Shown piece by piece: positions 5,770 through 41,160 of a DNA stretch of 44,375 nt. The translations under genes and the position numbers were made by a program. How positions within the stretch are numbered: position 1 is the first letter of the stretch; the number at the start of each line of letters is the position of its first letter. A model generated the notes under the pieces. The model was given only the letters and a program-made list of their open reading frames with translations. It searched no databases and was not told the origin of the DNA. The stretch comes from a virus: the IMG/VR virus record IMGVR_UViG_3300027743_000014, positions 1 to 44,375 of that record. The stretch is one strand, 5' to 3'.

Positions 5770-5770
5770 C

Positions 5771-7378: not shown

Positions 7379-7381
7379 CCC

Positions 7382-9025: not shown

Positions 9026-9034
9026 GAGCCGCCC

Positions 9035-16817: not shown

Positions 16818-16975
16818 TCGCCCGGCACCCTGATGTAGCGGTTACCGTGCTCGTCCAAGAATGTCGCCTCCTCAAAACGAAGCGCGATTTTCTCGGTGTA
16901 GTCCGCCATCACGCTCAGTGACGTATCGATGCTGTCCAGCAGCTCTAGTAGCTTCTCGATTTGCTCGTGGCTCAT
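16814..16975 (-). CDS. 53-residue protein between polymerase and helicase
   Basis: An ATG at 16975 follows a GGGAG ribosome site that lies over the end of the polymerase gene, and the stop overlaps the helicase start (ATGA). The product starts with a regular amphipathic helix (SHEQIEKLLELLDSIDTSLS) and ends TFLDEHGNRYIRV. It resembles small phage helix-strand proteins, perhaps dimeric, with no known activity. Coupled genes on both sides support it. Confidence 0.6.
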   Translation of the reverse strand: MSHEQIEKLLELLDSIDTSLSVMADYTEKIALRFEEATFLDEHGNRYIRVPGE

Positions 16976-16981
16976 GTGTTG

Positions 16982-19126: not shown

Positions 19127-19154
19127 GGGTGCTCCGTCGAGAAAAAAGCCTATA

Positions 19155-19177
19155 CCCCCTCCCAGTCCGGGAGGGGG
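19155..19177 (-). terminator. Intrinsic-terminator-like hairpin before the DNA polymerase gene
   Basis: CCCCCTCCC (19155-19163) and GGGAGGGGG (19169-19177) form a perfect 9-bp stem with a 5-base loop. Read on the minus strand, TTTTTT follows after six bases. It lies between the ssDNA-binding candidate (stop at 19191) and the polymerase start (19126), so it may reduce polymerase expression relative to the upstream genes. Confidence 0.55.
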
Positions 19178-19190
19178 TGTCGACAAAGCC

Positions 19191-19976
19191 CTAGCGCGGG
19201 CCAGGGCGGCGGCGTTGGCCGACGCGGGCCTGTACCGTGCTGACCGGCTCGACAACCGCCTCAGCGGCCGGCTGGACGGCCTCCAGCGGGGGTTTGGCGG
19301 GCTTGGCCGGCGCAGCCTTGACCGGCTCAGGCTTGGGCTGCTCCGGCGACAGGGCCGGTTGGGCGGGTCCGTCCGGCGCCATCTCACCGTTCATGTTGGC
19401 CCAGCCGATCTGGCGGAAGATGGGCTTGTAGATGTCCTTGCCCCACTTCGCGTTCCAGTAACTCTCGCTCTCCAGCGTGATGACGGGACAGAAGTAGACG
19501 CGGTCGACCGCGACCTGGCTGTAGATCTTGCCCATCAGGACATCCACGGCCTGGATGCAGCCGAGCGAGGCGCTCTTGTAGTGCGCCTCGAGGTCCTTGT
19601 CGGCGCCGTCGAGGCATTTGAGGTCGAAGGAGCGGGTGTCCTTGCACTCCTTGCCCTCGATCGGGGGCGGCTGGACGCCCTTGTCCTGCGTCACCGGCAC
19701 CATGGCGTCGAGCGCCAGCTCGTTCTTTTTGCCGCGCTCCACCCAGCAGGTATAGCCGTGCTGGATCGAGCGGGTGTTGATCACCCAACGCGAGCCCTTC
19801 TGCACATCCTCCTTCGATTGACCGAAGTTCCAGGTACCGTCCTTCTCGTTCATCCGCAGCAGGTCCTTGCCGCCGAAGCCAGGGATCTTAGTGACGGCGC
19901 GCGCCTGCGCGATGCCGCTCATCAGCTGGGCGGCGTAGTCATCGGGGAGTGCAAGCGAATTGCCGTTGTTAGCCAT
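19191..19976 (-). CDS. Putative single-stranded-DNA-binding protein (by context)
   Basis: A 261-residue protein with a TAGGAGATAG ribosome site. Residues 25-200 look like one folded alpha/beta or OB-type domain (GKDLLRMNEKDGTWNFGQ, SRWVINTRSIQHGYTCWVERGK, VYFCPVITLESESYWNAKWG), and the last 60 are Pro/Ala/Lys-rich and probably disordered. Genes in this place, between a DUF2800-type nuclease and a family A polymerase, are often ssDNA-binding proteins (for example DUF2815). A disordered tail also fits an SSB, though SSB tails are acidic and this one is basic. I did not recognise the family by sequence, so the function is inferred. A hairpin terminator follows. Confidence 0.7.
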   Translation of the reverse strand: MANNGNSLALPDDYAAQLMSGIAQARAVTKIPGFGGKDLLRMNEKDGTWNFGQSKEDVQKGSRWVINTRSIQHGYTCWVERGKKNELALDAMVPVTQDKGVQPPPIEGKECKDTRSFDLKCLDGADKDLEAHYKSASLGCIQAVDVLMGKIYSQVAVDRVYFCPVITLESESYWNAKWGKDIYKPIFRQIGWANMNGEMAPDGPAQPALSPEQPKPEPVKAAPAKPAKPPLEAVQPAAEAVVEPVSTVQARVGQRRRPGPR

Positions 19977-20002
19977 TTTGACTATCTCCTATTGCCTCTT
20001 GA

Positions 20003-21283
20003 CTATCGCACCAGCCGGACGGCGGGTGCGTCTCCCGAAAGCGCCTTAAGCGCTTCGCGGAACTGCTCGATCGCGACGTGCGGCTCGACCACCGGGGCCG
20101 GGTCATCGGTGCGCGCGATCGTGGTCTCGGTGGTCTCCGGTGTAACGCGCAGGTGGTCGGGTATCTTGACCCCTTTGCGCTTGGCGTAGGCGTCGATCGA
20201 CTGGAACGTCGCCAGCTTGCGCTGCCAGATCTCGTCCTGCGGGAAGCCCATGCGGGTCAGCACTTCGTTGACGCGGCTTTCCTCGATCCACTGGCGCTGC
20301 TTGGTCTTGGCCTTGAGGCGCCAGCCGGGGATCTTGCCGCCGGCCTCCAGGTAGCTGTGCATCTGCCGATCGATGTCGGCCTTGAACATCGCCAGGCTGT
20401 CGACCAGCACCTTGGCACGCGCCAAGTAGGCGCCGTAGGCGGAGGGGATGTCCGGGCGCGCATTCATCTCGCGCGCGGGCGTTGGAACATCGGCGAGCGC
20501 CGAGAGGTCGAGCAGCGCGCCGGTCCAGAGCGGGCACGCCACCTTGCAGGGGGCCCAGCGGCAGTGCTCGCCGCGCGCCCGCGGCGGGGCGCGGCCGATC
20601 GCGAGCAACACCGCGTTCTCGACGTCATCGACGAACTGGCGGACCTCGACGCGCGCGATCTGCGTGTGGGTGAGCGGCTCGACCCCGCGCGGCTGGATGA
20701 TGGCACCCACGATATGACGCCCGCCGGCGTACCACCTTGGCTGCGTTGCCTTGGCGGCGGCGATGTAGAACATCAGCTGCGGATTGACGTAAGCCCCATC
20801 ATTCGTGTCGTAGACCATGCGCACGCCGACGCCGGCGCCGAATTTCCAGTCGACGTGCAGCACGCAGGTGTCGCTCTGCAGCACGAGATCGATCGTGCCA
20901 AAGGCGCCGGCGAGGCGCGGAAACTTGACGCGCGCCTCGATGCCGACAACCTCGAAATGACCTCCGTATTGCGCCTCAAGCTCGGCCAGGCAGGCGAGCG
21001 CGGGCTCGATCATGGTATCGTAGTGCTCATAGGTGAGCTTGCGATCGTGAAAGTCGCGCGTGATCCAGGAACGGACGATGCCGGGCAGTTCGTTGACGGG
21101 AATGCCCTGCTGGCGCACCGCCATCAGCTCTTGCATCACCGCGTGCATGGCGGTGCCTTCTTCGGCGTACTCGGAAGGGATGTCGGCGCTGGGCGGTAGG
21201 GCGAGGATCGCCTGGTGACTGCCGGGGCAGTTGAGCAGCCGGCCGGCGTTCGAGCCGCCCACGATCGAACTATGCTTCGCCAT
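20003..21283 (-). CDS. DUF2800-type PD-(D/E)XK nuclease
   Basis: A 426-residue protein. The N-terminus SNAGRLLNCPGSH and EEGTAMHAVMQELM are hallmarks of the RecB/Cas4-like DUF2800 group. The nuclease core contains GTIDLVL and VDWKFGAG (Asp ... Asp-x-Lys, near residues 128-150), followed by NPQLMFYIAAA. A cysteine cluster EHCRWAPCKVACPLW (about residues 236-250) may bind an iron-sulphur cluster as in Cas4-like nucleases. The C-terminal ~200 residues are helical and basic (AYAKRKGVKIPDHLR). Such proteins are exonucleases of phage replication/recombination. The ribosome site is AAAGGGTC. It is the first gene of the minus-strand replication operon that opens at 21283. Confidence 0.8.
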   Translation of the reverse strand: MAKHSSIVGGSNAGRLLNCPGSHQAILALPPSADIPSEYAEEGTAMHAVMQELMAVRQQGIPVNELPGIVRSWITRDFHDRKLTYEHYDTMIEPALACLAELEAQYGGHFEVVGIEARVKFPRLAGAFGTIDLVLQSDTCVLHVDWKFGAGVGVRMVYDTNDGAYVNPQLMFYIAAAKATQPRWYAGGRHIVGAIIQPRGVEPLTHTQIARVEVRQFVDDVENAVLLAIGRAPPRARGEHCRWAPCKVACPLWTGALLDLSALADVPTPAREMNARPDIPSAYGAYLARAKVLVDSLAMFKADIDRQMHSYLEAGGKIPGWRLKAKTKQRQWIEESRVNEVLTRMGFPQDEIWQRKLATFQSIDAYAKRKGVKIPDHLRVTPETTETTIARTDDPAPVVEPHVAIEQFREALKALSGDAPAVRLVR

Positions 21284-21324
21284 TTTGACCCTTTACCATC
21301 TGACAATTCACTGTGGAGAGCCTG
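21284..21324. promoter_or_regulatory. Short divergent start region of two replication operons
   Basis: Only 41 bases lie between two genes reading outward, so the promoters must overlap the flanking genes. TTGACC at 21285-21290 could be a plus-strand -35, but no clear -10 follows at the right distance. The pieces TGGTAAAGGGTCAAA (minus) and TGTGGAGAG (plus) are the ribosome sites. Confidence 0.3.
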
Positions 21325-21612
21325 ATGGTAAAAAGCCCATCTGTCAAGGAGAGCGTGGTCGAGCGTGCGCTGCGCGACCGGGTGATCGCACGCGGCGGGG
21401 TGTGCGAGAAAATCATGGTGATCGGGCGGCGCGGTTTCTTTGACCGGCTGATTATCCTACCCGGCCCGCGGATTATTTTTGCTGAGGTGAAACGGCCGCG
21501 CGGTGGCCGGGTAAGCGCCCACCAGCGGCAGTATATCGATGATTTTAAGACGCGAGGGGTAGAGGTTGCGATCGTGCGAAATTCAGCGGATATTGACGCG
21601 CTGCTGAAATAG
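21325..21612 (+). CDS. VRR-NUC domain nuclease
   Basis: A 95-residue single-domain VRR-NUC nuclease. I chose ATG at 21325 with a GGAGAG site; a GTG four codons earlier would place the start over that site. The core reads RDRVIARGGVCEKIMVIG, then RGFFDRLIILPGPRIIFAEVKRPRG: the Asp of FFDRL and the Glu-x-Lys of AEVK are the catalytic metal-binding set, followed by the basic stretch and the QRQYIDDFKTRGVEV helix. Stand-alone VRR-NUC proteins resemble Holliday-junction resolvases and are frequent in phage replication modules, usually next to helicase or primase genes, as here. It opens the plus-strand replication operon. Confidence 0.9.
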   Translation: MVKSPSVKESVVERALRDRVIARGGVCEKIMVIGRRGFFDRLIILPGPRIIFAEVKRPRGGRVSAHQRQYIDDFKTRGVEVAIVRNSADIDALLK

Positions 21613-21675
21613 CAGGGGCCGCGGTGCTTGCGACACCAACGGCCCCGATCTGCACCGCACAACCGGAGACAGACC

Positions 21676-21909
21676 TTGACCAATACATATCACAAACAAT
21701 CGATGCTGCAACTCTGTCGCCCTTACTGTGGAGGGCAGTTCATGCATCTAGACCGTGCAGTAAACAACAAAAATAACACTGCGCCCGTCAGGCTGACGTG
21801 CGTGCAGTGTGCCAATGACGGTAGCTGCATTTTCATCATAGAACAGCACAAAGGGCGCACACTTCTCCGCTGGGATGGTGGCTTTCGTGTCAGGTTGGAG
21901 GATATTTGA
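21676..21909 (+). CDS. Zinc-ribbon protein
   Basis: A zinc-ribbon protein with LCRPYCGGQF near its start and LTCVQCANDGSCIF about 35 residues later, then IIEQHKGRTLLRW. The pattern CxxxCGG...C..C...IxQHKGxTxxxW is repeatedly found beside phage replication genes. The start is uncertain: TTG at 21676 follows CGGAGAC at a good distance (77 residues), while the ATG at 21703 has none; an ATG-like reading from 21628 is unlikely. The stop overlaps the start of the primase-helicase gene. Confidence 0.65.
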   Translation: MTNTYHKQSMLQLCRPYCGGQFMHLDRAVNNKNNTAPVRLTCVQCANDGSCIFIIEQHKGRTLLRWDGGFRVRLEDI

Positions 21910-24098
21910 TGCTGCAGCCCAAGCCCGTCGAGGCTTATCGCGACGTCTGGCGCCGCATCAAGGCCAACGGCTACGACGTCATCCCGTTGTTCACTGGCAA
22001 GGACAAGCCGCCGAAGGGCTGGCCGACGCTGCCAAATGACGAAGCGTCAATCGCACGTTGGAACGGGCGCACCGCGGCGGTTCGTATGTATGGCGGCGGC
22101 CTGTTCGCGATCGACATCGACATTCGTACCGCGGCGATCGCCGACGCGATCGTGCAGATGCTCGAACGCGAGTGGCCGGCGTTCATGGCGACCTGCCTGC
22201 GGCGGCACTCCGGCGCGGTCAAGCTGATGCTGATCGGCCGCGCGACGACGCACCACCGCTACCTAAACACGTTCCGCTGTCTCGACCCGGCCGCGCCGGA
22301 GGACACGAGCGGGCACCGCGTCGAGGTCTTTACCACCAATTCCAAGCGCTACATTGGCGTGCATGGGGCGCACAGCCCGGGGCGCGAGTACGGCTACCAC
22401 GGCCGCAGCATCCTTGAGGTGCCGGCGGCCGAGCTACCTGAGTTCCCGGCTGCCGACATCGGTCGGATGGTCGCCCGGTGCGAAGAGATCATGTTGGCGC
22501 ACGGGCTCAAGCCGAGCCAGCCGCCCCAGGCCGCCCACGAGTATAAAGGTGGGGTGGTTTACGACATCGACGAGGCGACGCGATTTGACGCGGACGGCGG
22601 CCCGGACGACATCGATTATGAGGAATTAGTCGGCCTTTACACGACGCGCGGCGAATTGCGTGTGTCGGGCTCGTTCATCGACGGCGGCACCAATCGCAGC
22701 CGCTGCCGGGTGGGTGATTGTTACCTGGCGCGCTGTGTTGGTGTGTTCGACCACGAGGCCATGGCCTGGCACTGCCCCAAGGAGGCGGACCCCAGCAAAG
22801 CGGCCGAGAAGCTGGGCGAGCGGCTGAACGAGGCCGGGATCGAGATGGATCCGGCACCGCCGCAGTGGCGCGAGATCTACCCTAATGGCACCCCGCGCGC
22901 CTCACTGCACAACGCCCGGCTCGGTATTGAGGCGGGCGGTTTTGTTGCAGTGTATGACGTGTTTCACAACAAGATGTACCTCGGGCGCCCGGCAGGTGGA
23001 CCACTATTGTCGTTCTGCGGTGAGGTCACCGACAACCGCGTCATGTTGCTGCGGGTGTGGGTGTCGGACACCTATGGGCGCGACTTCACCGAGAAGCACG
23101 TGCGCGATGCGGTCGTGGCGATGGCTGTGGCGAACCCCTACAATCCGGTGACCGAGATGCTGGCCGAGGCGCAGGCCAACTGGGACGGCGTGGCGCGGCT
23201 CGACCGCATGGCAGTCGACTACTTTGGCTGCCCCGACACACCGCTCACCCGCGCCTGCGTGCGCAAGACCATGATCGCGGCCGTTGCGCGGGCGCGCAAC
23301 CCCGGCTGCAAGTTCGACACCATCCTAGTGCTGGAGAGCCCGGAGGGGTGGAACAAGTCGAGTGCGTGGGCGGTCCTGGCCGGCGAGGGTAATTTCTCGG
23401 ACGAGCGCATTATCGGGCACGCCAGCCGCGAGGTGGTCGAGCAACTGGCCGGCGTCTGGATCCACGAGAACGCGGACCTGGCCGGCATGCGCAAGGCCGA
23501 GGTCGAGACCGTCAAGGCGTACGCCTCGCGCGCGGTCGACCGGGCGCGGCCGGCTTACGGGCACTTCCTGGTCGAGCAGCCGCGGCACTCGATCGAGGTC
23601 GGCACGACCAACAACGACGAATATCTGCAATCGCAAACCGGCAACCGGCGGTTCTGGCCAATCAAGATGGAGCGGCGCATTGATCTCGCCGCGCTACGCG
23701 CCGCGCGGCTGCAGTTATGGGGCGAGGCGGCCGCGGCGCAGGCCGCCGGCGAGAGCCTGACAATCGACGAGGCATTGTGGCCCGCGGCGGCAATCGCACA
23801 GGAGGCGCGGCGGGTGCGCGATCCGTGGGAGCCCATGCTTGAAAATCTGGCGCCAGTGTCGGTTACGGGTCCGTTGGCTGGTGCGGGGTATATCGGTAAC
23901 GGAATAGTGCATGTGGTGGAGGATGAGCAACGGGTTGCGACGGCCGTTATCTTCGAGCACGTTATTCGGATACCATCACACCTCCTTCAGGTTACACATG
24001 CCAAGCGGCTGGCGGACGCAATGCGAGCCCTCGGATGGGATACTAAGGTCTTCAAACTAGAGGGGAAAACGGTTCGCGGCTATGCCCGGAAAGTGTAG
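21909..24098 (+). CDS. Primase-helicase: PrimPol (AEP-like) plus VapE-type ATPase
   Basis: A fused protein of about 729 residues. Residues 1-200 match a bifunctional primase-polymerase domain: the opening DVWRRIKANGYDVIPLFTGKDKPP, the Asp-x-Asp metal site LFAIDIDIRT (near 65-75), and the GYHGRSI segment. A Cys cluster follows (CRVGDCYLARC, near 260-275). The C-terminal ATPase (about 390-640) is of the virulence-associated-E type: P-loop region ESPEGWNKSS, Walker B-like VWIHENADL, the segment KAYASRAVDRARPAYG, sensor VGTTNNDEYL and GNRRFWPIK. The P-loop lacks the usual GKS, having Asn-Lys-Ser instead. Such fusions act as primase-helicase in phage replication. The start overlaps the stop before it; a TTG at 21906 is possible. 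Confidence 0.87.
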   Translation: MLQPKPVEAYRDVWRRIKANGYDVIPLFTGKDKPPKGWPTLPNDEASIARWNGRTAAVRMYGGGLFAIDIDIRTAAIADAIVQMLEREWPAFMATCLRRHSGAVKLMLIGRATTHHRYLNTFRCLDPAAPEDTSGHRVEVFTTNSKRYIGVHGAHSPGREYGYHGRSILEVPAAELPEFPAADIGRMVARCEEIMLAHGLKPSQPPQAAHEYKGGVVYDIDEATRFDADGGPDDIDYEELVGLYTTRGELRVSGSFIDGGTNRSRCRVGDCYLARCVGVFDHEAMAWHCPKEADPSKAAEKLGERLNEAGIEMDPAPPQWREIYPNGTPRASLHNARLGIEAGGFVAVYDVFHNKMYLGRPAGGPLLSFCGEVTDNRVMLLRVWVSDTYGRDFTEKHVRDAVVAMAVANPYNPVTEMLAEAQANWDGVARLDRMAVDYFGCPDTPLTRACVRKTMIAAVARARNPGCKFDTILVLESPEGWNKSSAWAVLAGEGNFSDERIIGHASREVVEQLAGVWIHENADLAGMRKAEVETVKAYASRAVDRARPAYGHFLVEQPRHSIEVGTTNNDEYLQSQTGNRRFWPIKMERRIDLAALRAARLQLWGEAAAAQAAGESLTIDEALWPAAAIAQEARRVRDPWEPMLENLAPVSVTGPLAGAGYIGNGIVHVVEDEQRVATAVIFEHVIRIPSHLLQVTHAKRLADAMRALGWDTKVFKLEGKTVRGYARKV

Positions 24099-26555: not shown

Positions 26556-27929
26556 ATGCGGATATTTCTGCCGCACGACGACTGGACGCCGCGCGAGCAT
26601 CAAATGCCGCTGTGGAATTATCTGCGCGACGGCGGTAAGCGCGCGGTCGCGGTGTGGCATCGGCGCGCCGGCAAGGACGACGTCTGCCTGCACCACACCT
26701 GCATCGCCGCGATGGATCGCGTCGCCAACTACGGCCACGTGCTGCCCGAGTTCCTGCAGGGCCGCAGGGCTATCTGGAACGCCGTCAACCCGCACAGCGG
26801 TAAGCGACGCATCGACGAGGCGTTCCCGCACGTGCTGCGCGCTTCGACCAACGACACCACGATGTCGATTAAATTCATCAACGGCTCGACCTGGGCGGTG
26901 CTCGGCTCGGACACCTACGACACCTCGCTGGTCGGCTCGAGCTACGCGGGGTTAGTGTTCAGCGAGTATGCGCTCTCCAATCCCAGCGTCTGGGGTTATA
27001 CGCGCCCCATGCTCGAGGAGAACGACGGCTGGGCGATATTCATCACCACACCGCGCGGCCGTAATCATGCGTACGATATGTTCAACCATGCGCTTAAAAC
27101 ACCGTCCTGGTTTTGCGAGCTATTAACCGCCAAGGACACCGACATGCTCAGCGACGAGACGCTGGCGGAAACGCTGGCCGAGATGCAGAGCCTGTACGGC
27201 CAGGATCAAGGAATGGCCTCCTATCGGCAGGAGCTATTCTGCGACTGGACCGCCGCGGTGTTGGGCAGCTTCTACGCGATCGAGATGCGCTCGGTGCGCG
27301 ACGAGGAGCGCATCCAGGTGATCGAGCCCCCGAAAGGCATGCCGGTCTCGCGCGCGTGGGATCTCGGGGTCGGTCACAGCACCAGCATCTGGTTCTTCTG
27401 CGCGGTTGGCGCGCAGCTCTACGTCCTCGACAACTACACGGCCTCGGGCGTCGGCTTCGAGCACTACCGCGACCACATCGCCAGGATCTACGAGGAGCGC
27501 GGCTGGACCCACGGCACCGACTGGGTGCCGCACGACGCCATGGTCAAGGAGATGGGCACGGGCAGGACGCGCGTTGAAACCATGCGCCAGCTCGGCCTTA
27601 ACCCGGCGCTCGCCCCCGACGCCTCGCTCGAGGACGGCCGCAACGCGGTACGCCAGACGCTCGCCTACTGCGTCTTCCACCCGCGCTGCGGCGAGGGTGA
27701 CCTCAACGGCCTCTCGGCGCTCGAGCAGTACCGCCGCGAGTGGGACGACGACATGAAGACGTTCAAGAAGAACCACGTCGACGACTGGACCACCGATCCG
27801 GCGGACGCTTTTCGGTACATGTCGCTGTCCTGGCGCCGCGCCCCGCCGCGCATCGTCAAGCCGCCCAAGCGGGAAGGCTTCGTGATCCCGCCGCCGGTCG
27901 ACCAACGCCGCGGAGGCATGCGGCTATGA
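26556..27929 (+). CDS. terL: Terminase large subunit
   Basis: A 457-residue packaging motor. The ATPase has VAVWHRRAGKDDVCLHH (Walker A, near residues 31-46), the conserved AIWNAVNPHSGKRRIDEAF block, LVFSEYALSNPSVW (Walker B region, near 133-146) and IFITTPRGRNHAYDMF (coupling motif). The nuclease part has SRAWDLGVGHSTSIWF (first Asp, near 267), WVPHDAM and the final DDWTTDPADAFRYM Asp. This is the form found in many podoviruses with large portals. It lies between the TerS candidate and the small gene before the portal. The stop overlaps the next ATG. Packaging strategy cannot be read from it safely; a headful mechanism would fit the circular map. Confidence 0.93.
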   Translation: MRIFLPHDDWTPREHQMPLWNYLRDGGKRAVAVWHRRAGKDDVCLHHTCIAAMDRVANYGHVLPEFLQGRRAIWNAVNPHSGKRRIDEAFPHVLRASTNDTTMSIKFINGSTWAVLGSDTYDTSLVGSSYAGLVFSEYALSNPSVWGYTRPMLEENDGWAIFITTPRGRNHAYDMFNHALKTPSWFCELLTAKDTDMLSDETLAETLAEMQSLYGQDQGMASYRQELFCDWTAAVLGSFYAIEMRSVRDEERIQVIEPPKGMPVSRAWDLGVGHSTSIWFFCAVGAQLYVLDNYTASGVGFEHYRDHIARIYEERGWTHGTDWVPHDAMVKEMGTGRTRVETMRQLGLNPALAPDASLEDGRNAVRQTLAYCVFHPRCGEGDLNGLSALEQYRREWDDDMKTFKKNHVDDWTTDPADAFRYMSLSWRRAPPRIVKPPKREGFVIPPPVDQRRGGMRL

Positions 27930-28135
27930 GCGGTGCAACCTACGTCGTCAAACGCTTCCTGGCCGGCGTCAACGGTGATTACATCAACGCCGACCACATT
28001 GTCCGCGTCTACGTCAAAGACGGGAAGCTGATGGCGGACATGGCCTACGGCCCCGTCATCCAACTCAAGACCAATATGACGTCCTGGGCGCCGGGGACGT
28101 CCCCGATGACGCTGACCGAGATGGTGAGTTTATAA
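27926..28135 (+). CDS. Small beta-rich protein between TerL and portal
   Basis: A 69-residue protein overlapping TerL by ATGA and the portal by TAATG. It reads TYVVKRFLAGVNGDYINADHIVRVYVKDGKLMADM, with a short sheet fold similar to the small proteins located between terminase and portal in other podoviruses. No function is known; it may be a head-completion or packaging accessory protein. Confidence 0.65.
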   Translation: MSGATYVVKRFLAGVNGDYINADHIVRVYVKDGKLMADMAYGPVIQLKTNMTSWAPGTSPMTLTEMVSL

Positions 28136-30507
28136 TGGCCGACAGCGATCACGAAGATACCCGCCACGACGACCTCGAGTTCAACCCCGAGCTCGAGCCC
28201 AAGAGTTCGAAGGCCTGGCTCAACCTGCTCAATGAGAGCGAGAAGGCGTTCGAGGACTGGAACCAGCACTGCGACAACATCGATAAGCGCTACGCCAACC
28301 TCGATCGCCTCACCCTGATGGCGCGCGATCGCGAGTTTCAGATGTTCTGGGCCAACACCGAGGTGCTCAAGCCCAGCATCTACGCCAAGGCGCCGGTGCC
28401 TGTGGTCGTCCCCAAGTTCAAGGACCGCCGCCCGGTCTACCAGGCCGCCTCCGAGCTGATGGAGCGCTGCTGCGTCGTCTCGTTCGACTTAACGCGCATC
28501 GACGAGCTGATGAAGCTGGTGCGCGACGACGTCGTGCTCTACTCCCGCGGCGTTGCCTGGGTCAGATACGAGGCCGCGGGTAAAGCCAGCAATTATGACT
28601 ACGAGAAGGTCTGCATCGACTTCAAAGGCCGGCGCGACTTCCTGCACGGCCTGGCGCGCAACTGGCGCGAGGTGCCGTGGGTCGCGGCGGCGAGCTACTT
28701 GACCCGCGAGGAGGCGCGCGACCGCTTCAAGAAGTATAGCGGCCTCGCCTACCAGGACGCCGAGTACAAGGTCGACCGCGACGCCGAGGAGATCGGCGGC
28801 ACCGACAACCGCGAGCGCGCCAAGTTCTGGGAGATCTGGCACAAGGATCTGCAGCGCGTCGTGTGGGTCGCCGAGGGCGCCGAGGACATTCTCGACGAGG
28901 ACGAGCCGCACCTCAAGCTGGAGGGCTTCTTTCCCTGCCCCAAGCCGGCCTATTCGACAGTGCAGCCGGGCTCGCTGATCCCCGTCCCCGAGGTGCTGCA
29001 GTACAAGGATCAGCTCGACGAGGTGAACACGCTGACGGGTCGCATCCATGCGCTCACCGAGGCACTCACCGCCAAAGGTTTTTACCCGGCCGGCGGCGGT
29101 GAGCTCGCGGAGGCGATCGAGACGGCCATCAAGATCAATACACCTGGGGTTGTGATGGTGCCGATCTCGAATTGGGCCGCCTTTGGCGGCTCGAAAGAGA
29201 CCATCATCTGGATGCCGATCGATATGATTGCCGCGACCGTCACGCAGCTGGTGACGATCCGCAAGCAGGTCATCGACGACATCTACCAGATCACCGGCCT
29301 CGCCGACATCATGCGCGGCGCAACCGACGCGCGTGAGACGCTCGGCGCGCAGGAGCTCAAGACCCAGTTTGGCTCCACCCGCATCCGCGACAAACAGCAG
29401 GAGCTGGTGCGCATCGCGCGCGACCTGGTGGTGATCGCCGGCGAGATCATGACCAGCGAGTTCAGCCAGGTGACGCTGATCGAGATGAGCCAGACCCAGC
29501 TGCCGACGCAGGCGATGCAGCAACAACAGATCCAAGAGCTGACCCAGCAGCTCGAGCAGCAGCAGCAGCAGTGGGAGCAGGCGCAGCAAGATCCGCGCTT
29601 TGCGCAGCTGCAGCAGAGCAATCCGCAGGCCGTGCAGCAGGCGCAGGAGCAAATTCAACAGGCGACCGAGACTGGCCAGCAGGCGCTCACCCGCATTCAC
29701 GAGAAGCCGACGCTCGAGCAGGTGATGCGCTTCCTAAAAGACAACAAGTCACGCGCCTTCACGCTCGACATCGAGACCGACAGCACGGTGATGATCGACG
29801 AGAACGGCGAGAAGGAGCGCAGGGCCGAGTTCATCCAGGTATTGACGCCCATGCTGGCGCAGATCGGCCAGATGGTGACCGCGACGCCGGAGAGCGCCGA
29901 GTTCTGCGGCGCCTTGCTCAAGTTCGCCACCGCGCCCTACCGCGCCGGTCGCGAGCTCGACGGCGCGGTCGACAACCTGATCGAGCTGATGAAGGCCGAA
30001 CAGGGCAAGCCGAAAGGCAAAGACCCGACCACGATGCAGAACGAAACTGCGCTGCAGATCGAGCAAATGAAGGTCGACGCCATCAAGGCGCGCGACCAGA
30101 CCGATGCACAGCTCAAGCAGCAGGAAATGGAGATGCGCGACCGCCACGAGAAGATGAAGGTCGCCAGCAGCGAGAAGATCAAGATGGCGGAGATCTCCAG
30201 CCGCCGCGGCGACGACGGTGGCAAACAACAGGCCACCCAGCTCAAGCTGGTGCACGATCGTGAAAAGCACGACATGGATATGCAAAAGCTGCAGGCCGAC
30301 CAGCAGCGCGACGCCGCCAAGGCCAACCTCGACCGCCAGCGCGACGTCGAGAAGGCGAATATGCAGCAGGCCGCAATGCGCGCCAAGCAGCAGGCCGACG
30401 CCCAGCGCGCGCAGGACCAGCGCGCCGTGCTGCAGCAGCGCACGGCCGATCAGCGCTCAGCGCAACAATTCAAGCTGATGCAGCCGCCGGGAGGTGGGCG
30501 CCGATGA
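28135..30507 (+). CDS. Portal protein (P22-type, long)
   Basis: A 790-residue portal. Early conserved parts are WLNLLNESEKAFEDWNQHCDNIDKRYANL (near residues 28-56), MFWANTEVLKPSIYAKAPVPVV and the block NWREVPWVAAASYLTREEARDRF. The core PDEPHLKLEGFFPCPKP and DEVNTLTGRIHALTEALTAKG also fits portals of short-tailed phages of this group. After about residue 460 it is Gln-rich (QQQQIQELTQQLEQQQQQWEQ), and residues 630-780 are a long charged helix. That long end recalls the P22 portal barrel inside the capsid. Portal dodecamers sit at one capsid vertex and bind the terminase and neck. It follows TerL, with the expected order. Confidence 0.85.
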   Translation: MADSDHEDTRHDDLEFNPELEPKSSKAWLNLLNESEKAFEDWNQHCDNIDKRYANLDRLTLMARDREFQMFWANTEVLKPSIYAKAPVPVVVPKFKDRRPVYQAASELMERCCVVSFDLTRIDELMKLVRDDVVLYSRGVAWVRYEAAGKASNYDYEKVCIDFKGRRDFLHGLARNWREVPWVAAASYLTREEARDRFKKYSGLAYQDAEYKVDRDAEEIGGTDNRERAKFWEIWHKDLQRVVWVAEGAEDILDEDEPHLKLEGFFPCPKPAYSTVQPGSLIPVPEVLQYKDQLDEVNTLTGRIHALTEALTAKGFYPAGGGELAEAIETAIKINTPGVVMVPISNWAAFGGSKETIIWMPIDMIAATVTQLVTIRKQVIDDIYQITGLADIMRGATDARETLGAQELKTQFGSTRIRDKQQELVRIARDLVVIAGEIMTSEFSQVTLIEMSQTQLPTQAMQQQQIQELTQQLEQQQQQWEQAQQDPRFAQLQQSNPQAVQQAQEQIQQATETGQQALTRIHEKPTLEQVMRFLKDNKSRAFTLDIETDSTVMIDENGEKERRAEFIQVLTPMLAQIGQMVTATPESAEFCGALLKFATAPYRAGRELDGAVDNLIELMKAEQGKPKGKDPTTMQNETALQIEQMKVDAIKARDQTDAQLKQQEMEMRDRHEKMKVASSEKIKMAEISSRRGDDGGKQQATQLKLVHDREKHDMDMQKLQADQQRDAAKANLDRQRDVEKANMQQAAMRAKQQADAQRAQDQRAVLQQRTADQRSAQQFKLMQPPGGGRR

Positions 30508-33510: not shown

Positions 33511-36500
33511 ATGGCCGTCAGGGTCTTCATCGTCTCCGGCACCGACTACACGGTGCCTGCCAACTACGCGACCCCCAGCACCATTGAGGTCATTGGGGCG
33601 GGCGGCGGCGGTGGCGGCGGCGACGGGAGCACCGGCGCGCGCGCGGGCGGCGGCGGCGGCGCCTATGCCAGGGTTTCCAGCCCCGCGCTGACGCCCGGCG
33701 CCGTCGTCACCATCCAGGTCGGCGCGGGCGGCACCGGGCCGTCAGGCGCCGTCGGCAACCACGGCACCGACGCTTGGTTCAATGGTGCGTCGCTTGCGGC
33801 ATCGCTAGTCGGTGCCCAGGCCGGGCAGGGCGGCGGTAACGGCGGCGGCGGGCCGTATACTGGCGGCGTTCGCGGTCGTGACATAAACAGCAAGGGTTCT
33901 ACGCTCTACGACGGCGGCACGGGCGGAAATTCTCCAAACGGCTGGAACGGCGGCGGCGGTGGTGGGGCTGGCGGGCCGAACGGTACTGGAGCAGCCGGTG
34001 GCGCAAGCATTAGCGGCGGCGGCGCGGGCGGTGGCGGCGGTGGCGGCAATGGTGGCGGGTCCGCGGCCGCTAACTCCACCGGCAATGGCAGCGCGGGCGG
34101 GCATAATTTCGGCGGCACGGGCGGCGGGGCCGGCGGAACATCAGGCTCCACCGCGTCAACCGCAGGCGCAGCCGGGACCGATGGTGGTGGCGGCGGCGGC
34201 GGCGGTGGCGTCGGCAACGGCAATATCCCTGCCTCTCCCGGCGGCAACGGCTCCACCGGCACCGAATGGGACGCGACGCACGGTTCCGGCGGCGGTGGCG
34301 GCGGTGCCGGCGGCACCGGCAACGGCTTTGGCACGACCAGCATAGGCGGCCACGGCGGGCTCTACGGCGCGGGCGGCGGCGGTGGTTCCTACTCCGGAGG
34401 TGTTGCCGGCGGCACCGGCGGCCAGAGCATCATCGTCCTCACCTACGAGGCTGGAGGCCCGACCAACTACCCGCTGACGGTAACGACCGGCGCGCTCACA
34501 CTCACCGGCAACACGACTACCCTCACCCCCGCGCAGCCGCACAAGACGCTCACCGTCACGGCTGGCGCGCTGGCGCTGACGGGAAACACAGCCGGTCTGA
34601 ACTACGCGGGTGCGATTGCAGCGACGACGCTCGACCCGGCCGAAACCTCGACCAAGATCACACTGTCGAACGGTAACCTGACCGCAACCAGAACATCCGG
34701 CAGCGGATACGGCACGACGCTGTCGACACCGTCGGACGGCACCAAGGTCTACGCCGAGGTTGTTACCAACGTCGGAAGCACCGCGCAGTGGGTTTTCGGC
34801 GTCACAATCGATGCTTTCTCGGTCGAAGCAGGCATACTCGGCGGCTCCGCAGGCACACACGGGGCTTCATCGGTCGCTTATTTCGACGACGGCAGTGTCT
34901 ACAAGGACGGCGCCGAGCAGGGAGACGGTCTCGACGCTCCGTTTGTGGCCGGCGATCGTGTTGCCGTTGCCTACAACGCCGGTGCCGGACAAATCACGTT
35001 TCGAAACGTCACTACGGCGAGTGCGTGGACGGCATCGATCGCCAGTCCGTTCGCCCTGAACACGCCGTTGCGTTTTGGTTTCAGCGTCTTCAGCACGATT
35101 GGTAGCCAAGCAACATTCCACTTCGATGACACGTTCGTCGGCACGCCGCCGGACAGCAGCTATACACGCTGGAACGGCACGGCGATCCCCACGACGTTCG
35201 ACCCGACCTACACGCACGCCAACATCACGCTGTCGAACGGCAACAAGACGGCCACGCGCTCATCGACGGCTAACGGCACCGACGCGGCCACGCTCTCCTA
35301 CGAGATCGCCGCCTCTGCGACCAAGGTGTACGCGGAGGCCACGATCAACGTGCAAAGCGCTCCCCAAGCTTGGGGTCTTGCCAATTCGTCGGCCAATCTT
35401 GGTGTGTTCATCGGCGGCGATAACAACGGCATTTCCGCCTTCGGCTCCCAAATTACGACCAACAGTGTTCCCGTAGCCGTTCTCCCCGGCACGGCTCCGG
35501 TGGCGGGGGAGGTGTTAGCGATTGCGGTCAATAAGACGGCGCAGACGGTGGCATTTCGCAATGTCACGCAGGCCGCCGCGTGGTCATCTGCCGTCTCAAT
35601 ATCCGCGATCACCGGCCCGTGGCGCTTCTCTACCAACGGTGCCCTCGCAGGCAACCAACTCACCGCTAATTTTGACGACACGTTTGTCGGTACACCGCCG
35701 GATGGCAGCTACACGCGCTGGAACGGCACGCCGATCGGCGTCGCCGGCGCCTATAATCTCACCGTCACGCCCGGCTCCCTGGCGCTCACCGGCAACGACG
35801 CCGCGCTGCCGCGCACCATAATCCTGGTCGCCACGACCGCCGCGCTCGCGCTCACCGGCAGCGCCGTCGACTTCCTGCGCGGTTTTGCCTTAGCGGTCAC
35901 GACCGCCGCGCTCACCCTCACTGGCACCGCCGCAAACCTGGTGCGCGGCCTGCGCTTGGCGGTGAACACCCTCGCGCTCTCGCTTAGCGGCAACCCCGTC
36001 GTCCTCCTGGGCGGGAAGACCCTGAGCGCAACCTCCGGCGCGCTCGCGCTCACTGGCAATACCGCCGGCTTCCTGCGCGGGGTTGTGCTAGCCGCCACGT
36101 CCGGCGCGCTCGCGCTCACTGGCAACGCCGCCAATTTGCTGCGCGGCACCGTCCTGGCCGCCACCTCCGGCGTGCTCGCACTCACCGGCACTGCGGTCGA
36201 CCTTGTCACCAGCAGCGCCCGCACGCTGACGGTCCTGACCGGCGAGCTCGCGCTCACCGGCAACACCGCCAACCTGCTGCTCAACCGCCTGCTGATTGCC
36301 GCCCAAGGCGCGCTGACGCTGACCGGAAACGCCGCGAGCCTGCTCACCACCTACACCCTGGCGGCGTTCAACGGCACGCTGACGCTCACCGGCGTTGACG
36401 TGCTGTTGCGCTCGGCACGCAGGATCGCGGCCGAGCTCGGCGAGCTGCTGCTCACCGGGCGGCCGGTCGACCTCGTCTTTTATGTGCCGCAACACTACAA

Positions 36501-36624
36501 ACTTGCTGTCGAACCCGGCGCGCTCGTATTATTGTCCCCGCGCGTCGAGCTGCGCATCAATGAAAAGCAGCCCGGTCCGATGCGGTGGGGTCGTCGTCTC
36601 GTCGTGATACCTGGACGCTGGTAG
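33511..36624 (+). CDS. Large repetitive virion surface protein: Gly-rich region, two SPRY-like domains, LTGN repeats
   Basis: A 1037-residue protein with four parts. Residues 1-25 start VRVFIVSGTDYTVPANY; residues 25-310 are the glycine-rich fibre domain (VIGAGGGGGGGDG, VTIQVGAGGTG). Residues about 370-555 and 555-740 are two copies of one B30.2/SPRY-like beta-sandwich: both contain ITLSNGN...TATR, TKVYAE, ITFRNVT/VAFRNVT, and end in FDDTFVGTPPD and YTRWNGT. Residues about 745-990 are roughly 11 repeats of 21-23 residues with the core LALTGN-x-AxLLRG. SPRY-like domains often bind protein or glycan, so it is likely a surface or receptor-directed protein. It is unusual in lying in the head region, away from the tail fibres. 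Confidence 0.75.
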   Translation: MAVRVFIVSGTDYTVPANYATPSTIEVIGAGGGGGGGDGSTGARAGGGGGAYARVSSPALTPGAVVTIQVGAGGTGPSGAVGNHGTDAWFNGASLAASLVGAQAGQGGGNGGGGPYTGGVRGRDINSKGSTLYDGGTGGNSPNGWNGGGGGGAGGPNGTGAAGGASISGGGAGGGGGGGNGGGSAAANSTGNGSAGGHNFGGTGGGAGGTSGSTASTAGAAGTDGGGGGGGGGVGNGNIPASPGGNGSTGTEWDATHGSGGGGGGAGGTGNGFGTTSIGGHGGLYGAGGGGGSYSGGVAGGTGGQSIIVLTYEAGGPTNYPLTVTTGALTLTGNTTTLTPAQPHKTLTVTAGALALTGNTAGLNYAGAIAATTLDPAETSTKITLSNGNLTATRTSGSGYGTTLSTPSDGTKVYAEVVTNVGSTAQWVFGVTIDAFSVEAGILGGSAGTHGASSVAYFDDGSVYKDGAEQGDGLDAPFVAGDRVAVAYNAGAGQITFRNVTTASAWTASIASPFALNTPLRFGFSVFSTIGSQATFHFDDTFVGTPPDSSYTRWNGTAIPTTFDPTYTHANITLSNGNKTATRSSTANGTDAATLSYEIAASATKVYAEATINVQSAPQAWGLANSSANLGVFIGGDNNGISAFGSQITTNSVPVAVLPGTAPVAGEVLAIAVNKTAQTVAFRNVTQAAAWSSAVSISAITGPWRFSTNGALAGNQLTANFDDTFVGTPPDGSYTRWNGTPIGVAGAYNLTVTPGSLALTGNDAALPRTIILVATTAALALTGSAVDFLRGFALAVTTAALTLTGTAANLVRGLRLAVNTLALSLSGNPVVLLGGKTLSATSGALALTGNTAGFLRGVVLAATSGALALTGNAANLLRGTVLAATSGVLALTGTAVDLVTSSARTLTVLTGELALTGNTANLLLNRLLIAAQGALTLTGNAASLLTTYTLAAFNGTLTLTGVDVLLRSARRIAAELGELLLTGRPVDLVFYVPQHYKLAVEPGALVLLSPRVELRINEKQPGPMRWGRRLVVIPGRW
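35752..36480 (+). repeat. About eleven degenerate 63-69-bp repeats coding LALTGN units
   Basis: The last part of the 33511 gene repeats a 21-23-residue unit: two strands ending in LALTGN or LTLTGT, then a turn such as AANLLRG. DNA units share gcgctcgcgctcac and are close enough to recombine. The repeat suggests a beta-solenoid-like rod. Confidence 0.8.
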
Positions 36625-36645: not shown

Positions 36646-37356
36646 ATGGCCCATAACGCGCTGACCGTGACCAACCCCAACCCGACGCCGCCCACCAACA
36701 TGAGCTGCACGGGTGCGACCTCGCCCAATCCGCCAAATTTTACCAAGAACACCTACAACGACCCGAAAAACTGGTCATACATCAACCCAAAGGACTACCC
36801 GCCGCCTTACTTCGACGACGGCGCGTCCGGTGCGCTGACCGCGCTGGCGGCCAATACGGCGGCGCTTGCGTCAGGATCCGGCGCCACCGCCGGCGGCACC
36901 GAGAACAGCTATCCGGGCGCGGCCAGCGGCGTGGTTCCGGCCTCCACCAGCGTGGCGCATGAGGGCGCCGGCACCGAGGTGGTGGTCACCTCGCCGGGAT
37001 CTCTCGCGACCGCCCCGACCCAGCAGGTGAGCGTGCTCGGCTCCTACACCACGACGCCGAACGCGAGCCATGCGTCCTACCTCTCGGCCGGCACCGCGCC
37101 GGTCATCACCGGAACGCCCGCTCCGAACAACACCGCATCCGGTCTCGGTACCGTGCTGATGACGCTCACCGGCACCGGCTTCAAGCGTGACAGCGTGATT
37201 TACGTCGACGGCATCGCGCAGAACACCAACTACGTCAGCTCTACGTCGCTGACCACGAACGCGCCCAAGAAGCCGACTGCCGGAACCCGGCAGGTCACGG
37301 TGGTTAATGGTGTCGGGGGCACGCCGAGCGCGGCCTCCACCTGGACCTTCACCTAA
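36646..37356 (+). CDS. Structural protein with IPT/TIG-like domain (1 of 2)
   Basis: A 236-residue protein with the strongest ribosome site of the region, AAAGGAGGGCGAC. Residues 1-65 are Asn/Pro-rich; 65-130 are Ala/Gly/Ser-rich; residues 150-236 form a TIG/IPT-like Ig sandwich: PVITGTPAPNNTASGLGTVLMTL, TGTGFKRDSVIYVDG, TRQVTVVNGVGG. TIG domains in phages often decorate capsids or tails and stick to cells. The next gene has the same kind of domain. The strong site suggests many copies per virion. Confidence 0.75.
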   Translation: MAHNALTVTNPNPTPPTNMSCTGATSPNPPNFTKNTYNDPKNWSYINPKDYPPPYFDDGASGALTALAANTAALASGSGATAGGTENSYPGAASGVVPASTSVAHEGAGTEVVVTSPGSLATAPTQQVSVLGSYTTTPNASHASYLSAGTAPVITGTPAPNNTASGLGTVLMTLTGTGFKRDSVIYVDGIAQNTNYVSSTSLTTNAPKKPTAGTRQVTVVNGVGGTPSAASTWTFT

Positions 37357-37371
37357 CAAGGAGACGACGCC

Positions 37372-38253
37372 ATGGCGACCAGGCCACACGACGAGGAGCG
37401 GGTCGAGCGGGAGCGGCAGGAGAACACCGCCTCGCGCAAACGCGCGCACGACGAGGAGCGGAGCCGGCAAAGCGGCGCCCGCGGTCCTGCCCCCCGCGAC
37501 GACGGCGCCCAGCTTCACAAGGACGCCACGCCGCGCCAGCGCCTCGAGCACGAGAAGGACGAGGAGGGCTTCGTCGAGCGCATCCGCGAGGAGAAGCAGC
37601 ACCACGACTTCATCGAGCGCACCAAACCTGACGACCCGAGCGACAACCTCGGCCAGCTGACACGCGACAACGTCAATCCCGACATCCCCAGTGCTGAGCC
37701 AGGAACGGGGCCGATCGTGCAGCCGGAGAGCAACTCCGGCGGTGTGCCGCCACCCAAGACCGAGGAGAGCGAGCTGCCTGAACCGCTTCGCGCGCACAGC
37801 ATCAACGAGCCGCCGGGCTCGGATGTGATCCCGGGCGCGGACACCGGGCCAAATCAGCTCCCTGGCGACGGCTCTGCGCTGCCGCCTGGTACCGAGCTGC
37901 CGCCGCTGGTACTCTCCGACATCTCGCCTGACAGCGCCGATCTCGGCAGCATGGTCGATTTCGTGCTGACTGTGATCGGTAGCGGCTTTACGCCGAACAG
38001 CGTGATCCTGTTCGACGACGAGGAGCTGCCGACCACGTTTGTCAACCAGACTACCATGACGGCCAGCCCGCCGACGCAGGCCGAGGCCGGCATCGTCGAC
38101 GTCGAGGTGGCGCGCGGCGAGGATCTTAGCGACGTGCTCACGTTCGAGTTCGTCGCGCCGGCGGGCCGGCGCTCGAGCGAGAAGGCCGAGCGCAGGCCGA
38201 AGAAGAACACGCCGATCAGTCGGCGTGCGGACAAGAAGAAGGGGAAGAAATGA
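37372..38253 (+). CDS. Charged protein with IPT/TIG-like domain (2 of 2)
   Basis: A 293-residue protein with an AAGGAGACG site. The first 90 residues are extremely charged (EERVERERQENTASRKRAHD), the middle is Pro/Gly/Ser-rich, and residues about 175-265 are a TIG-like domain: LSDISPDSADLGSMVDFVLTV, GSGFTPNSVILFDDEELP, EAGIVDVEVARG. The end is strongly basic (RRADKKKGKK). It is an adjacent relative of the preceding protein's domain on a different scaffold. It may be a head or decoration protein whose basic tail meets DNA. The last codons overlap the next ATG. Confidence 0.7.
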   Translation: MATRPHDEERVERERQENTASRKRAHDEERSRQSGARGPAPRDDGAQLHKDATPRQRLEHEKDEEGFVERIREEKQHHDFIERTKPDDPSDNLGQLTRDNVNPDIPSAEPGTGPIVQPESNSGGVPPPKTEESELPEPLRAHSINEPPGSDVIPGADTGPNQLPGDGSALPPGTELPPLVLSDISPDSADLGSMVDFVLTVIGSGFTPNSVILFDDEELPTTFVNQTTMTASPPTQAEAGIVDVEVARGEDLSDVLTFEFVAPAGRRSSEKAERRPKKNTPISRRADKKKGKK

Positions 38254-38501
38254 GCGAAGAGCTGAGCCTGGGTGCGCGCCGCGTGCGCGCATCCTTCAAC
38301 CCGACCAAAAACTCGGCGGTGGACATGCTCAAGGGCACCGCCGCCAAGTTCATCGACCAGTGCCACGCCATGGCTGACAAGACGGACGATCCCGAGATCG
38401 GGCGTTGCATCAGTCTGGCGATGACCCACGCCGAGACCGCGGCTATGTACGCCGTCAAGGCGGCCACGGCCGAACCAAAGCAGGAAACGAAGGCCGCGTA
38501 G
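38250..38501 (+). CDS. Acb2/Tad1-hairpin-like small protein, candidate anti-CBASS sponge
   Basis: An 83-residue helical protein. The pattern RRVRASFNP (residues 10-18), then a helix from V24 to about M41 (VDMLKGTAAKFIDQCHAM), a turn DDPEIGR (46-52), and a helix AMTHAETAAMYAVKAAT (57-73) match the helical hairpin I associate with the DUF7681/Acb2-Tad1 family. Family members Acb2 and Tad1 bind cyclic nucleotides made by CBASS and Thoeris defences and so block them. Many members lie, as here, among head genes and have not been tested. Sponge function is therefore inferred; the hairpin pattern itself is visible. ATGA coupling precedes it, and the stop shares a base with the next GTG. Confidence 0.65.
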   Translation: MSEELSLGARRVRASFNPTKNSAVDMLKGTAAKFIDQCHAMADKTDDPEIGRCISLAMTHAETAAMYAVKAATAEPKQETKAA

Positions 38502-38800
38502 TGAGCCTGATTGAGATCGAACCGGGCCGCTTCGTCGTCGATCGGCGGCGCGGCCCGGTCGCGCGCAGCCGGCTGCCGGCGCCGATGCTGATCACGGACG
38601 AGATGCCGCCGACCGAACAAATAGACGGCAAATTCTACACCTCTAAACGTACGTTCCGCGCGGTCGGGCGCGCGCACGGGCTGACTGAGGTTGGCAACGA
38701 AGTTCTGAAGCCGAAGACGCGATCGAGTTCAGCACCGCAGGAGCGCGCGCGCCGGCGCGAGGCGATCAAGACCGCCGTCGAGAGATACCGAGCGAAATAG
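38501..38800 (+). CDS. Conserved head-operon protein, unknown
   Basis: A 99-residue protein with GTG start that overlaps the preceding TAG by one base. It reads LIEIEPGRFVVDRRRG, then MLITDEMPPTEQIDGKFYTSKRTFRAVGRAHGLTEVGNE. The pattern (D)GKxYTSKxxFRxxxRxxGxxExGNE occurs in small proteins before the scaffold or capsid genes of many phages, whose function is unknown. It is followed by the hairpin region upstream of the scaffold gene. Confidence 0.75.
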   Translation: MSLIEIEPGRFVVDRRRGPVARSRLPAPMLITDEMPPTEQIDGKFYTSKRTFRAVGRAHGLTEVGNEVLKPKTRSSSAPQERARRREAIKTAVERYRAK

Positions 38801-38869: not shown

Positions 38870-40108
38870 ATGTCTGACACGTCCGCCCCCTCGCCGCCCC
38901 CGCCGCCGTCAAATACGCCGGCCCCTGCGCCGCAGCAGGAAGTTCCGGTCAACCAGAACCCGGTCGACGTCCCCCGCCCACTGGGCGACCAGGCGCCGCC
39001 GGCGGCCCCTGAGAAGCCACCCGTCAGCCGGCGGGAGGCGATCCAGAAGGCGCTCGCCAAGCAGCGCGTCGACAGCCCGCCGCAGCCGCGCGAGGCCAAG
39101 AAGGGCGACAATAACCCCCCGGAGGACACCCCGGACGAGGAGTTCAGCCTCAAGAAGCGACCCAGCGACCAGCCGCGCGATCGCGGCCGGTTCGCACCAA
39201 AGTCTGCGCCCAATGTTTCGCCGCAGGAAAGCGCAGACGCGGGGCGGCAGGCGGCCCAACCCGGCACGCAGGCCGCCCCGCAACCCTACACGCCCCCGCC
39301 GGGCGCGCCGGCGCACCACCACCCCATCCCGCGCATGTCACCGCGCGCCGCGGCGTTGTGGGACAAAGTGCCGGATGAGGTGCGCGCCGACGCACACCGG
39401 ATGTATCGCGAGATCGACCAGGCCTTCCGCAAGTACAAGGCCGACTACGACTTCGCCAACACGATCCGGCCCTACATCGAGATGGCGCGCCAGCAGGGCA
39501 CCACGATCGCGCGCGTCTTAGAAAACCACGACGGCATCGAGCAGAAGCTGCGCTCAGATCCGATCGGCGGCCTCGAGATCATTGTCCACAATCTCAATCT
39601 GCAGACCCCGGACGGGCAGAAGCTGACGTTCCGGGATCTGGCCTGGCACCACCTCAACCAGACCCCGGAGCAGCATCAGCTGATCCAGCAGCGCAACTCC
39701 GCGGAGGCGATGCGGCTGCAGATCGAGGAGATGCGGCGCCAGCAGGAGGCGCTTGCCAACGAACACCGCCGGATGCAGTATGCGCAGCACTTCTCGATGA
39801 CGCGCGGGGCGGTTGATCGGTACGCCGACACGCACCCCCGCTTCAACGAGCTAGGACCGCTGATCCACCAGGAGATCCAGCTCGGGTTCGACCTGGAGAC
39901 GGCCTACCGCCGCGCAGAACTGCTGTGGCCCGCGACAGCGGCTCAGACCCGCACCGGCACGACGGCGGCTCAGACCCGCAACCCCGACAGAAGCATCTCC
40001 GGCGCGCCCGGTGGCGGACCCCTCAATGGGGCTGCGCGTACAGGCAAGCCGACCTCTCGCAAGGACGCCATCGCGCACGCCATCAACCATGTGCGGGGCA
40101 GCCTATGA
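38870..40108 (+). CDS. Putative scaffolding protein
   Basis: A 412-residue protein directly before the capsid gene. The first 130 residues are Pro/Lys-rich and probably disordered. Residues 145-330 are helical: MSPRAAALWDKVPDEVRADAHRMYREIDQAFRKYKADYDFANTI, then LRSDPIGGLEIIVHNL and the coil RLQIEEMRRQQEALANEHRRMQ. The last 50 residues are Gly/Arg-rich with SRKDAIAHAINHVRG. This layout and the location fit podovirus scaffold proteins that guide capsid assembly. The SD is GGGAGAG. No protease is seen nearby, so scaffold release is likely without cleavage, as in P22. Confidence 0.75.
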   Translation: MSDTSAPSPPPPPSNTPAPAPQQEVPVNQNPVDVPRPLGDQAPPAAPEKPPVSRREAIQKALAKQRVDSPPQPREAKKGDNNPPEDTPDEEFSLKKRPSDQPRDRGRFAPKSAPNVSPQESADAGRQAAQPGTQAAPQPYTPPPGAPAHHHPIPRMSPRAAALWDKVPDEVRADAHRMYREIDQAFRKYKADYDFANTIRPYIEMARQQGTTIARVLENHDGIEQKLRSDPIGGLEIIVHNLNLQTPDGQKLTFRDLAWHHLNQTPEQHQLIQQRNSAEAMRLQIEEMRRQQEALANEHRRMQYAQHFSMTRGAVDRYADTHPRFNELGPLIHQEIQLGFDLETAYRRAELLWPATAAQTRTGTTAAQTRNPDRSISGAPGGGPLNGAARTGKPTSRKDAIAHAINHVRGSL

Positions 40109-40137: not shown

Positions 40138-41160
40138 ATGCCCAATATTACGACCAATGCTGCCTACCAGCAGATCCTCAGCATGGCCGTCGAAGAGCGG
40201 TCAAGCAGCTACCAAGACCTCGTCTCCAACAACAACGCACTGCTCGCCGTTCTCAGGCGCAAAGGCGCCTGGAAGTCCTACTCCGGTCCGGTCATCCGCG
40301 AGACCCTGCAGATCGGCAAGCAAGTCGCGCAGTGGTATTCGGGCTACGACCAGCTGCTCAACCCGGCGATCGACCTGTTCAACGACGCGATGTTCACCCC
40401 CAAGATGGTCGTCGTGCCGATCATCCTGTCGATGCAGGAAATTCTCAACAACCAGGGCTCGAGCCAGCTGATGGACGTGCTCGACAGCTACATGGAGGCC
40501 GCCGAGCGCTCGCTCGAGGACACCATGGACGCCGGGCTGTTCTCCGACGGCACCGCCAACGGCGGCAAGCAGATCACCGGGCTGGCCACCGCGATCCCGA
40601 TCACCACCAATAGCGGCGTCTACGGCGGCCTCGACCGCGCCACCGCTACGATTTGGCGGACGTCAACCTTCGACGCGCAGACGATGGCGACGACGATCGG
40701 CACGCAGGTGAACAAGGACACCATCCGGCCCTTCCTCAACATGATCATGACCCAGCGCTCGCGCGGCAAGGACTACGCCGACTTGCTGATCATGAGCCCG
40801 GAGCACTACGCCGCTTACGACGCCGCGACGATACAGATCCAGCGGCAGACCAACGAGACCTCGATGGGCAAGCTGGGCTTCTCCTCGCTCGAGTACATCG
40901 GCGGCGGCAAGCGGGCTGAGATCGTGCTCGACGGCGGCATTGGCTCGAACATGCCGGCCAACACCACGTTCGGCATCAACACCGACAGTCTGCGCTTGCG
41001 CTATCACCCCAACCGCAACTTCGACCGCGTGTTTGATGGCGAGGGCCAGATGCCGATCGACAAAGACGCGATCGCGCAGTTCATCGGCTGGATGGGCGAG
41101 CTCACGATGGTCAACCCGCTGTTCAACTGGCGCTTCTACGACAGCAATCCGGCGACCTAA
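40138..41160 (+). CDS. Major capsid protein
   Basis: A 340-residue protein with a GGGGGGAG ribosome site. It has the makeup of an HK97-fold capsid protein: an N-terminal helix region (MAVEERSSSYQDLVSNNNALLAVLRRKGAW), the spine-helix block MDVLDSYMEAAERSLEDTMDAGLFSDGTA, the P-domain strands and the end LTMVNPLFNWRFYDSNPAT, plus LLIMSPEHYAAYDAATIQIQ. It follows the scaffold gene and precedes neck-type genes. It shows no long N-terminal prodomain, so it probably needs no maturation cleavage. A small GC-rich hairpin follows its stop. Confidence 0.88.
   Translation: MPNITTNAAYQQILSMAVEERSSSYQDLVSNNNALLAVLRRKGAWKSYSGPVIRETLQIGKQVAQWYSGYDQLLNPAIDLFNDAMFTPKMVVVPIILSMQEILNNQGSSQLMDVLDSYMEAAERSLEDTMDAGLFSDGTANGGKQITGLATAIPITTNSGVYGGLDRATATIWRTSTFDAQTMATTIGTQVNKDTIRPFLNMIMTQRSRGKDYADLLIMSPEHYAAYDAATIQIQRQTNETSMGKLGFSSLEYIGGGKRAEIVLDGGIGSNMPANTTFGINTDSLRLRYHPNRNFDRVFDGEGQMPIDKDAIAQFIGWMGELTMVNPLFNWRFYDSNPAT

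Follow-up and report, generated by a model that had tools for sequence, protein, structure and literature searches.

P0001, a putative cyclic nucleotide sponge of the Acb2/Tad1 hairpin family encoded in a phage head-gene operon

Acb2 of phage T4 and of P. aeruginosa phages acts against CBASS and Tad1 acts against Thoeris, both belonging to a family of proteins that soak up bacterial alarm signals. Acb2, solved for T4 (Vs.4, PDB 7UQ2) and for P. aeruginosa phage p26 (PDB 8H2J/8IXZ), is a single-domain hairpin of about 75-115 aa whose protomer has one short and two long helices (PMC12043709, PMC10419184). Cyclic dinucleotide binding by T4 Acb2 is disrupted in the Y8A mutant; F82 makes a stacking contact with the base (PMC12657218), and T68M lowers affinity (PMC12657230). 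Solved Tad1 proteins (PDB 7UAV, 8SMD, 8KBE-8KBH) share the hairpin topology and have in addition an N-terminal antiparallel beta-sheet domain. Here we describe P0001, an 83-aa protein encoded in the window, by which we mean the whole stretch of 44,375 nucleotides that was analysed. What is new is P0001 itself; the Acb2/Tad1 family is already known, and the branch of FNP-type hairpins in which P0001 falls is common and mostly free of experiments. The most likely reading, which we hold with moderate confidence, is that P0001 is a putative cyclic nucleotide sponge.

The gene, its family and the predicted fold

The gene and its landmarks are:

38250..38501, + strand: P0001, Acb2/Tad1-hairpin protein of 83 aa (PF24729, 45 bits, and AlphaFold2 model)
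38292..38303, + strand: SFNP motif, codons 15-18 of P0001 (joint alignment)
38331..38333, + strand: K28, codon 28 of P0001, invariant in relatives (joint alignment)
38403..38468, + strand: second long helix of P0001, codons 52-73, with the R52, T59, M66 and K70 signature

The open reading frame translates as MSEELSLGARRVRASFNPTKNSAVDMLKGTAAKFIDQCHAMADKTDDPEIGRCISLAMTHAETAAMYAVKAATAEPKQETKAA, and the two motifs on which the first-pass annotation had relied are present in it, SFNP at residues 15-18 and AMTHAETAAMYAVKAAT at residues 57-73. Its ATG overlaps the stop codon of the upstream gene (ATGA), its own stop overlaps the GTG start of the downstream gene (TAGTG), and comparison with the closest relative gives a dN/dS of 0.21 (NG86), lower than the 0.47 of the upstream IPT gene. 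Because of these overlaps with both neighbours and a dN/dS of about 0.2, P0001 is a real gene, and it is under purifying selection. The small size of the protein and the overlap of both gene ends with the neighbours could also be read as signs of a decayed or fortuitous frame; this reading, whose probability we put close to nil, is ruled out by the family match (PF24729, E 1.3e-11), the purifying selection and the size of the family, which counts at least 472 matches in viruses. A search of the whole window found one hairpin copy. PADLOC gave no match, and no promoter was seen near the gene in a scan with a consensus that covers phage and alphaproteobacterial promoters poorly.

The proposal that the protein belongs to the family of Acb2 is borne out by the Pfam profile search, in which PF24729 is the sole family matched, with 45 bits against a cut-off of 27. 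All 71 of the 71 aligned relatives also match PF24729, and the characterised Acb2 proteins T4 Vs.4 and p26 score 71 and 66.5 bits on it, respectively. In agreement, hhalign pairs the FNP-type profile with the Acb2-type profile at a probability of 96.2 (E 2e-9). Searched against the PDB, the profile of the 71 relatives recovers T4 Vs.4 (7UQ2) with an E of 2.4e-4 and, below significance, five Tad1 sequences and 9PTQ, "Acb2 homolog 43" (E 0.5, hairpin region), for which no paper was found in the literature searched. A designed TIM barrel, also helical, scores level with Vs.4, so that this search alone is not decisive, and the single sequence of P0001 returned nothing meaningful from the PDB. Taken with the Pfam result, we conclude firmly that P0001 is a member of the Acb2/Tad1 hairpin family.

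A helical hairpin had also been anticipated, and it is the fold that AlphaFold2 predicts from the alignment of the 71 relatives, all of them PF24729 members: helices span residues 7-11, 22-42 and 48-72, with a pLDDT of 91.7 and values >90 across most residues. The long antiparallel helices 22-42 and 48-72 form the hairpin and the short N-terminal helix 7-11 precedes it as in Acb2, which gives the model the topology of the Acb2 protomer. Its top two Foldseek matches in BFVD are Acb2/Tad1 hairpin proteins (E 6e-4 and 2.4e-3). Among the best 50 PDB matches Acb2 and Tad1 do not appear; encapsulated ferritins come first, together with generic helical hairpins, at E above 1. For so simple a predicted fold we regard the PDB outcome as uninformative, neutral to slightly negative.

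Positions aligned with the Acb2 pocket

Pocket residues of Acb2, taken from PMC12657218 and PMC12657230, were located by aligning 105 FNP-type proteins jointly with 102 of the Acb2 type. F16, which is F in 99% of the FNP-type proteins, pairs with the tyrosine found in 100% of the Acb2-type ones (Y8 in T4, Y11 in PaMx33-type Acb2). K28, invariant in the FNP-type proteins (100%), pairs with Acb2 K23/K26 (99%), and K26 of PaMx33-type Acb2 is, we assume, a residue of the cyclic-dinucleotide pocket. In the second long helix, R52 (99%) pairs with R67 (63% R; D in T4), T59 (98%) with T68/T74, K70 (100% K) with R79/R85 (99% R), and M66 with M75/M81, a position that is invariant in the Acb2 family; the R52, T59, M66 and K70 signature is common to Acb2 and Tad1. 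T73 pairs with F82/A88, the T4 F82 not being kept. The pocket positions are thus kept or conservatively replaced at F16 (Y in Acb2), K28 (K26) and T59 (T68) and changed at T73 (F82), and those matching the Acb2 pocket rank among the most conserved. Judging from the alignment, most pocket positions, not all, appear to be kept with conservative changes, and the choice of ligand may differ.

P0001 shares with Acb2 the PF24729 match, the single-domain hairpin, the arrangement of one short and two long helices and the aligned aromatic, K, T, M and K/R positions. Unlike Acb2, it has F for Y, K70 for R79/R85 and T73 for F82/A88, reads FNPSxxxxVD where Acb2 has GYRDLSQEEIDLMN, has three fewer residues ahead of the conserved K, and carries an extra conserved Gly-x-x-x-Val ahead of the FNP motif; identity is about 20% across the aligned part. 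With Tad1 it shares the hairpin topology and the second-helix pattern R-x6-T-H-x-E-x-A-x-M-W/Y, while the first helix differs.

These comparisons bear on whether a sponge of the same fold could take up something other than a CBASS dinucleotide, for example the Thoeris signal gcADPR, a cyclic trinucleotide or a messenger of type III CRISPR systems. AMTHAETAAMY of P0001 strongly resembles ALTHVEEALMW in solved Tad1, down to an R placed seven residues ahead of the T, and the N-terminal dinucleotide-pocket motif departs from that of Acb2. However, the Tad1-type N-terminal beta domain is absent from P0001 (83 aa in all, no strand in the AlphaFold2 model), and P0001 retains both K28 and an aromatic residue where Acb2 has Y8, so we consider this alternative rather unlikely.

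The head-gene operon and related phages

The genes that surround P0001 are:

26556..27929, + strand: terminase large subunit (phrog_2, E 1.3e-26)
28135..30507, + strand: portal protein (phrog_12082, E 3.6e-180)
37372..38253, + strand: upstream 293-aa protein with an IPT/TIG domain (PF01833, 26.2 bits)
38501..38800, + strand: downstream 99-aa protein, homologue of RHph_I3_18 EVC14_006 (phrog_21669; BLASTP 42% over 91 aa)
38870..40108, + strand: virion structural protein, probable scaffold (phrog_25516, E 2.4e-16; matches RHph_I3_18 EVC14_007)
40138..41160, + strand: major head protein (phrog_9953, E 1.5e-79; 63% to Rhizobium phage RHph_I3_18)

The hairpin gene lies in a co-directional, tightly packed operon in the order IPT protein, hairpin, 99-aa protein, scaffold and major head protein, and the PHROG matches to terminase large subunit, portal, virion structural protein and major head protein agree with the earlier placing of P0001 among head genes. 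Two relatives (L024/L002 and L045) likewise have the IPT gene paired with the hairpin gene. Two consecutive genes fill 36646-38253 directly 5' of the hairpin, the second being the IPT/TIG gene at 37372-38253.

The best matches of the major head protein and portal are those of Rhizobium phage RHph_I3_18, which makes the alphaproteobacterial host supposed by the first-pass annotation plausible; weaker matches come from Bradyrhizobium and Ruegeria phages, but also from Microcystis, Stenotrophomonas and Myxococcus phages. RHph_I3_18 has the order portal, two small genes, scaffold and major head protein, and its 113-aa gene matches the 99-aa gene of the window (42%). No hairpin was found in RHph_I3_18, either at the syntenic site or by tblastn, and since this phage is otherwise syntenic, the hairpin is an accessory gene.

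In the relatives of P0001 the terminase large subunit is the commonest neighbour, the terminase small subunit and portal occur as well, and others adjoin DNA polymerase, Sak4 and exonuclease genes; the counts are approximate because the neighbouring frames were picked by a simple script. In annotated records, the hairpin lies 5' of the terminase small subunit (Pmp11), after the terminase large subunit (DSL-LC05), between internal virion proteins (PS3) or, in others, near ERF or DUF669 recombination genes. The late position, which had been called odd for an anti-defence gene, is therefore ordinary, as relatives commonly sit beside terminase or portal genes.

Such surroundings would also suit a small helical structural protein, or an assembly or packaging helper, working with the head and terminase genes and binding no nucleotide. 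The gene stands between the IPT/TIG gene and the scaffold and major head genes, relatives often adjoin terminase and portal, and the best 50 PDB Foldseek matches hold only generic helical hairpins. Nevertheless, the hairpin is missing from the syntenic RHph_I3_18, the neighbours of relatives extend to DNA polymerase, Sak4, exonuclease, ERF and DUF669 genes, a variety that implies no fixed structural partner, and conservation is among the highest at the positions that correspond to the Acb2 pocket. We judge a structural role improbable.

As a cyclic nucleotide sponge, P0001 would form a small oligomer, hexameric if it resembles that of Acb2, and this putative oligomer would sequester a cyclic nucleotide immune signal, with the consequence that CBASS-type effectors would stay off during virion building. 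Both the binding of the ligand and the protection from CBASS, with its benefit to the phage, are putative. Given that a sponge binds its signal stoichiometrically, strong late expression could help. Delivery of P0001 in the virion was also considered and is unsupported, nothing in the analysis pointing to it.

Fibre-like genes are also present in the stretch that holds the hairpin. A 1037-aa glycine-rich, repeat-bearing protein at 33511-36624 has weak matches to phrog_10080 and to tail fibre assembly phrog_863. At 4234-10615 there are four consecutive proteins of 511-547 aa, two of them with a Peptidase_S74 endosialidase-chaperone domain, which suggests several alternative fibres or tailspikes. 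Additionally, at 15414-24098 a protein with a VapE-like domain (213 bits) adjoins a block of replication genes on the minus strand, which code for DNA polymerase A, an SNF2-type helicase and a DUF2800 nuclease.

The FNP-type branch

The FNP clade is widespread, with at least 472 viral matches, and FNP-type hairpins occur in contigs of Rhizobiales, Rhodobacteraceae, Burkholderiales, Dyadobacter and Flavobacterium relatives. When Acb2, Tad1 and FNP-type hairpins are placed in one tree, all 105 of the 105 FNP-type proteins fall in one clade with modest support (0.73), while the same tree does not resolve Acb2 (support 0.10). We tentatively propose, as a possibility short of our preferred reading of P0001, that FNP-type hairpins may form a separate and very widespread branch of sponges with a signal specificity of their own. 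The branch would span phages of Proteobacteria and Bacteroidota, and whether its genes lie in late or in replication operons would depend on the lineage.

Providencia phage PS3 gp43 and other UniProt proteins named "Acb2/Tad1 hairpin domain-containing" resemble P0001 in fold and in the FNPS and MW.VKA sequences. PS3 gp43, like P0001, belongs to a late operon, where its own neighbours are internal virion genes; it differs in having 65 aa and in scoring just under the Pfam cut-off. In the literature searched we found no experiment on these proteins or on any other of the FNP branch. If P0001 binds a cyclic nucleotide, counter-defence by sponges would extend to this whole branch, and the nearly invariant F16, K28, R52, T59 and K70 offer a direct handle for a mutational test.

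In a Rhodobacteraceae MAG (contigs CATOSB01...), seven contigs (L121-L127) each hold a hairpin relative within a stretch of at least 6.4 kb; these stretches are nearly the same (99.3-100% identical to that of L121), a pattern that would fit seven copies of a single prophage or element.
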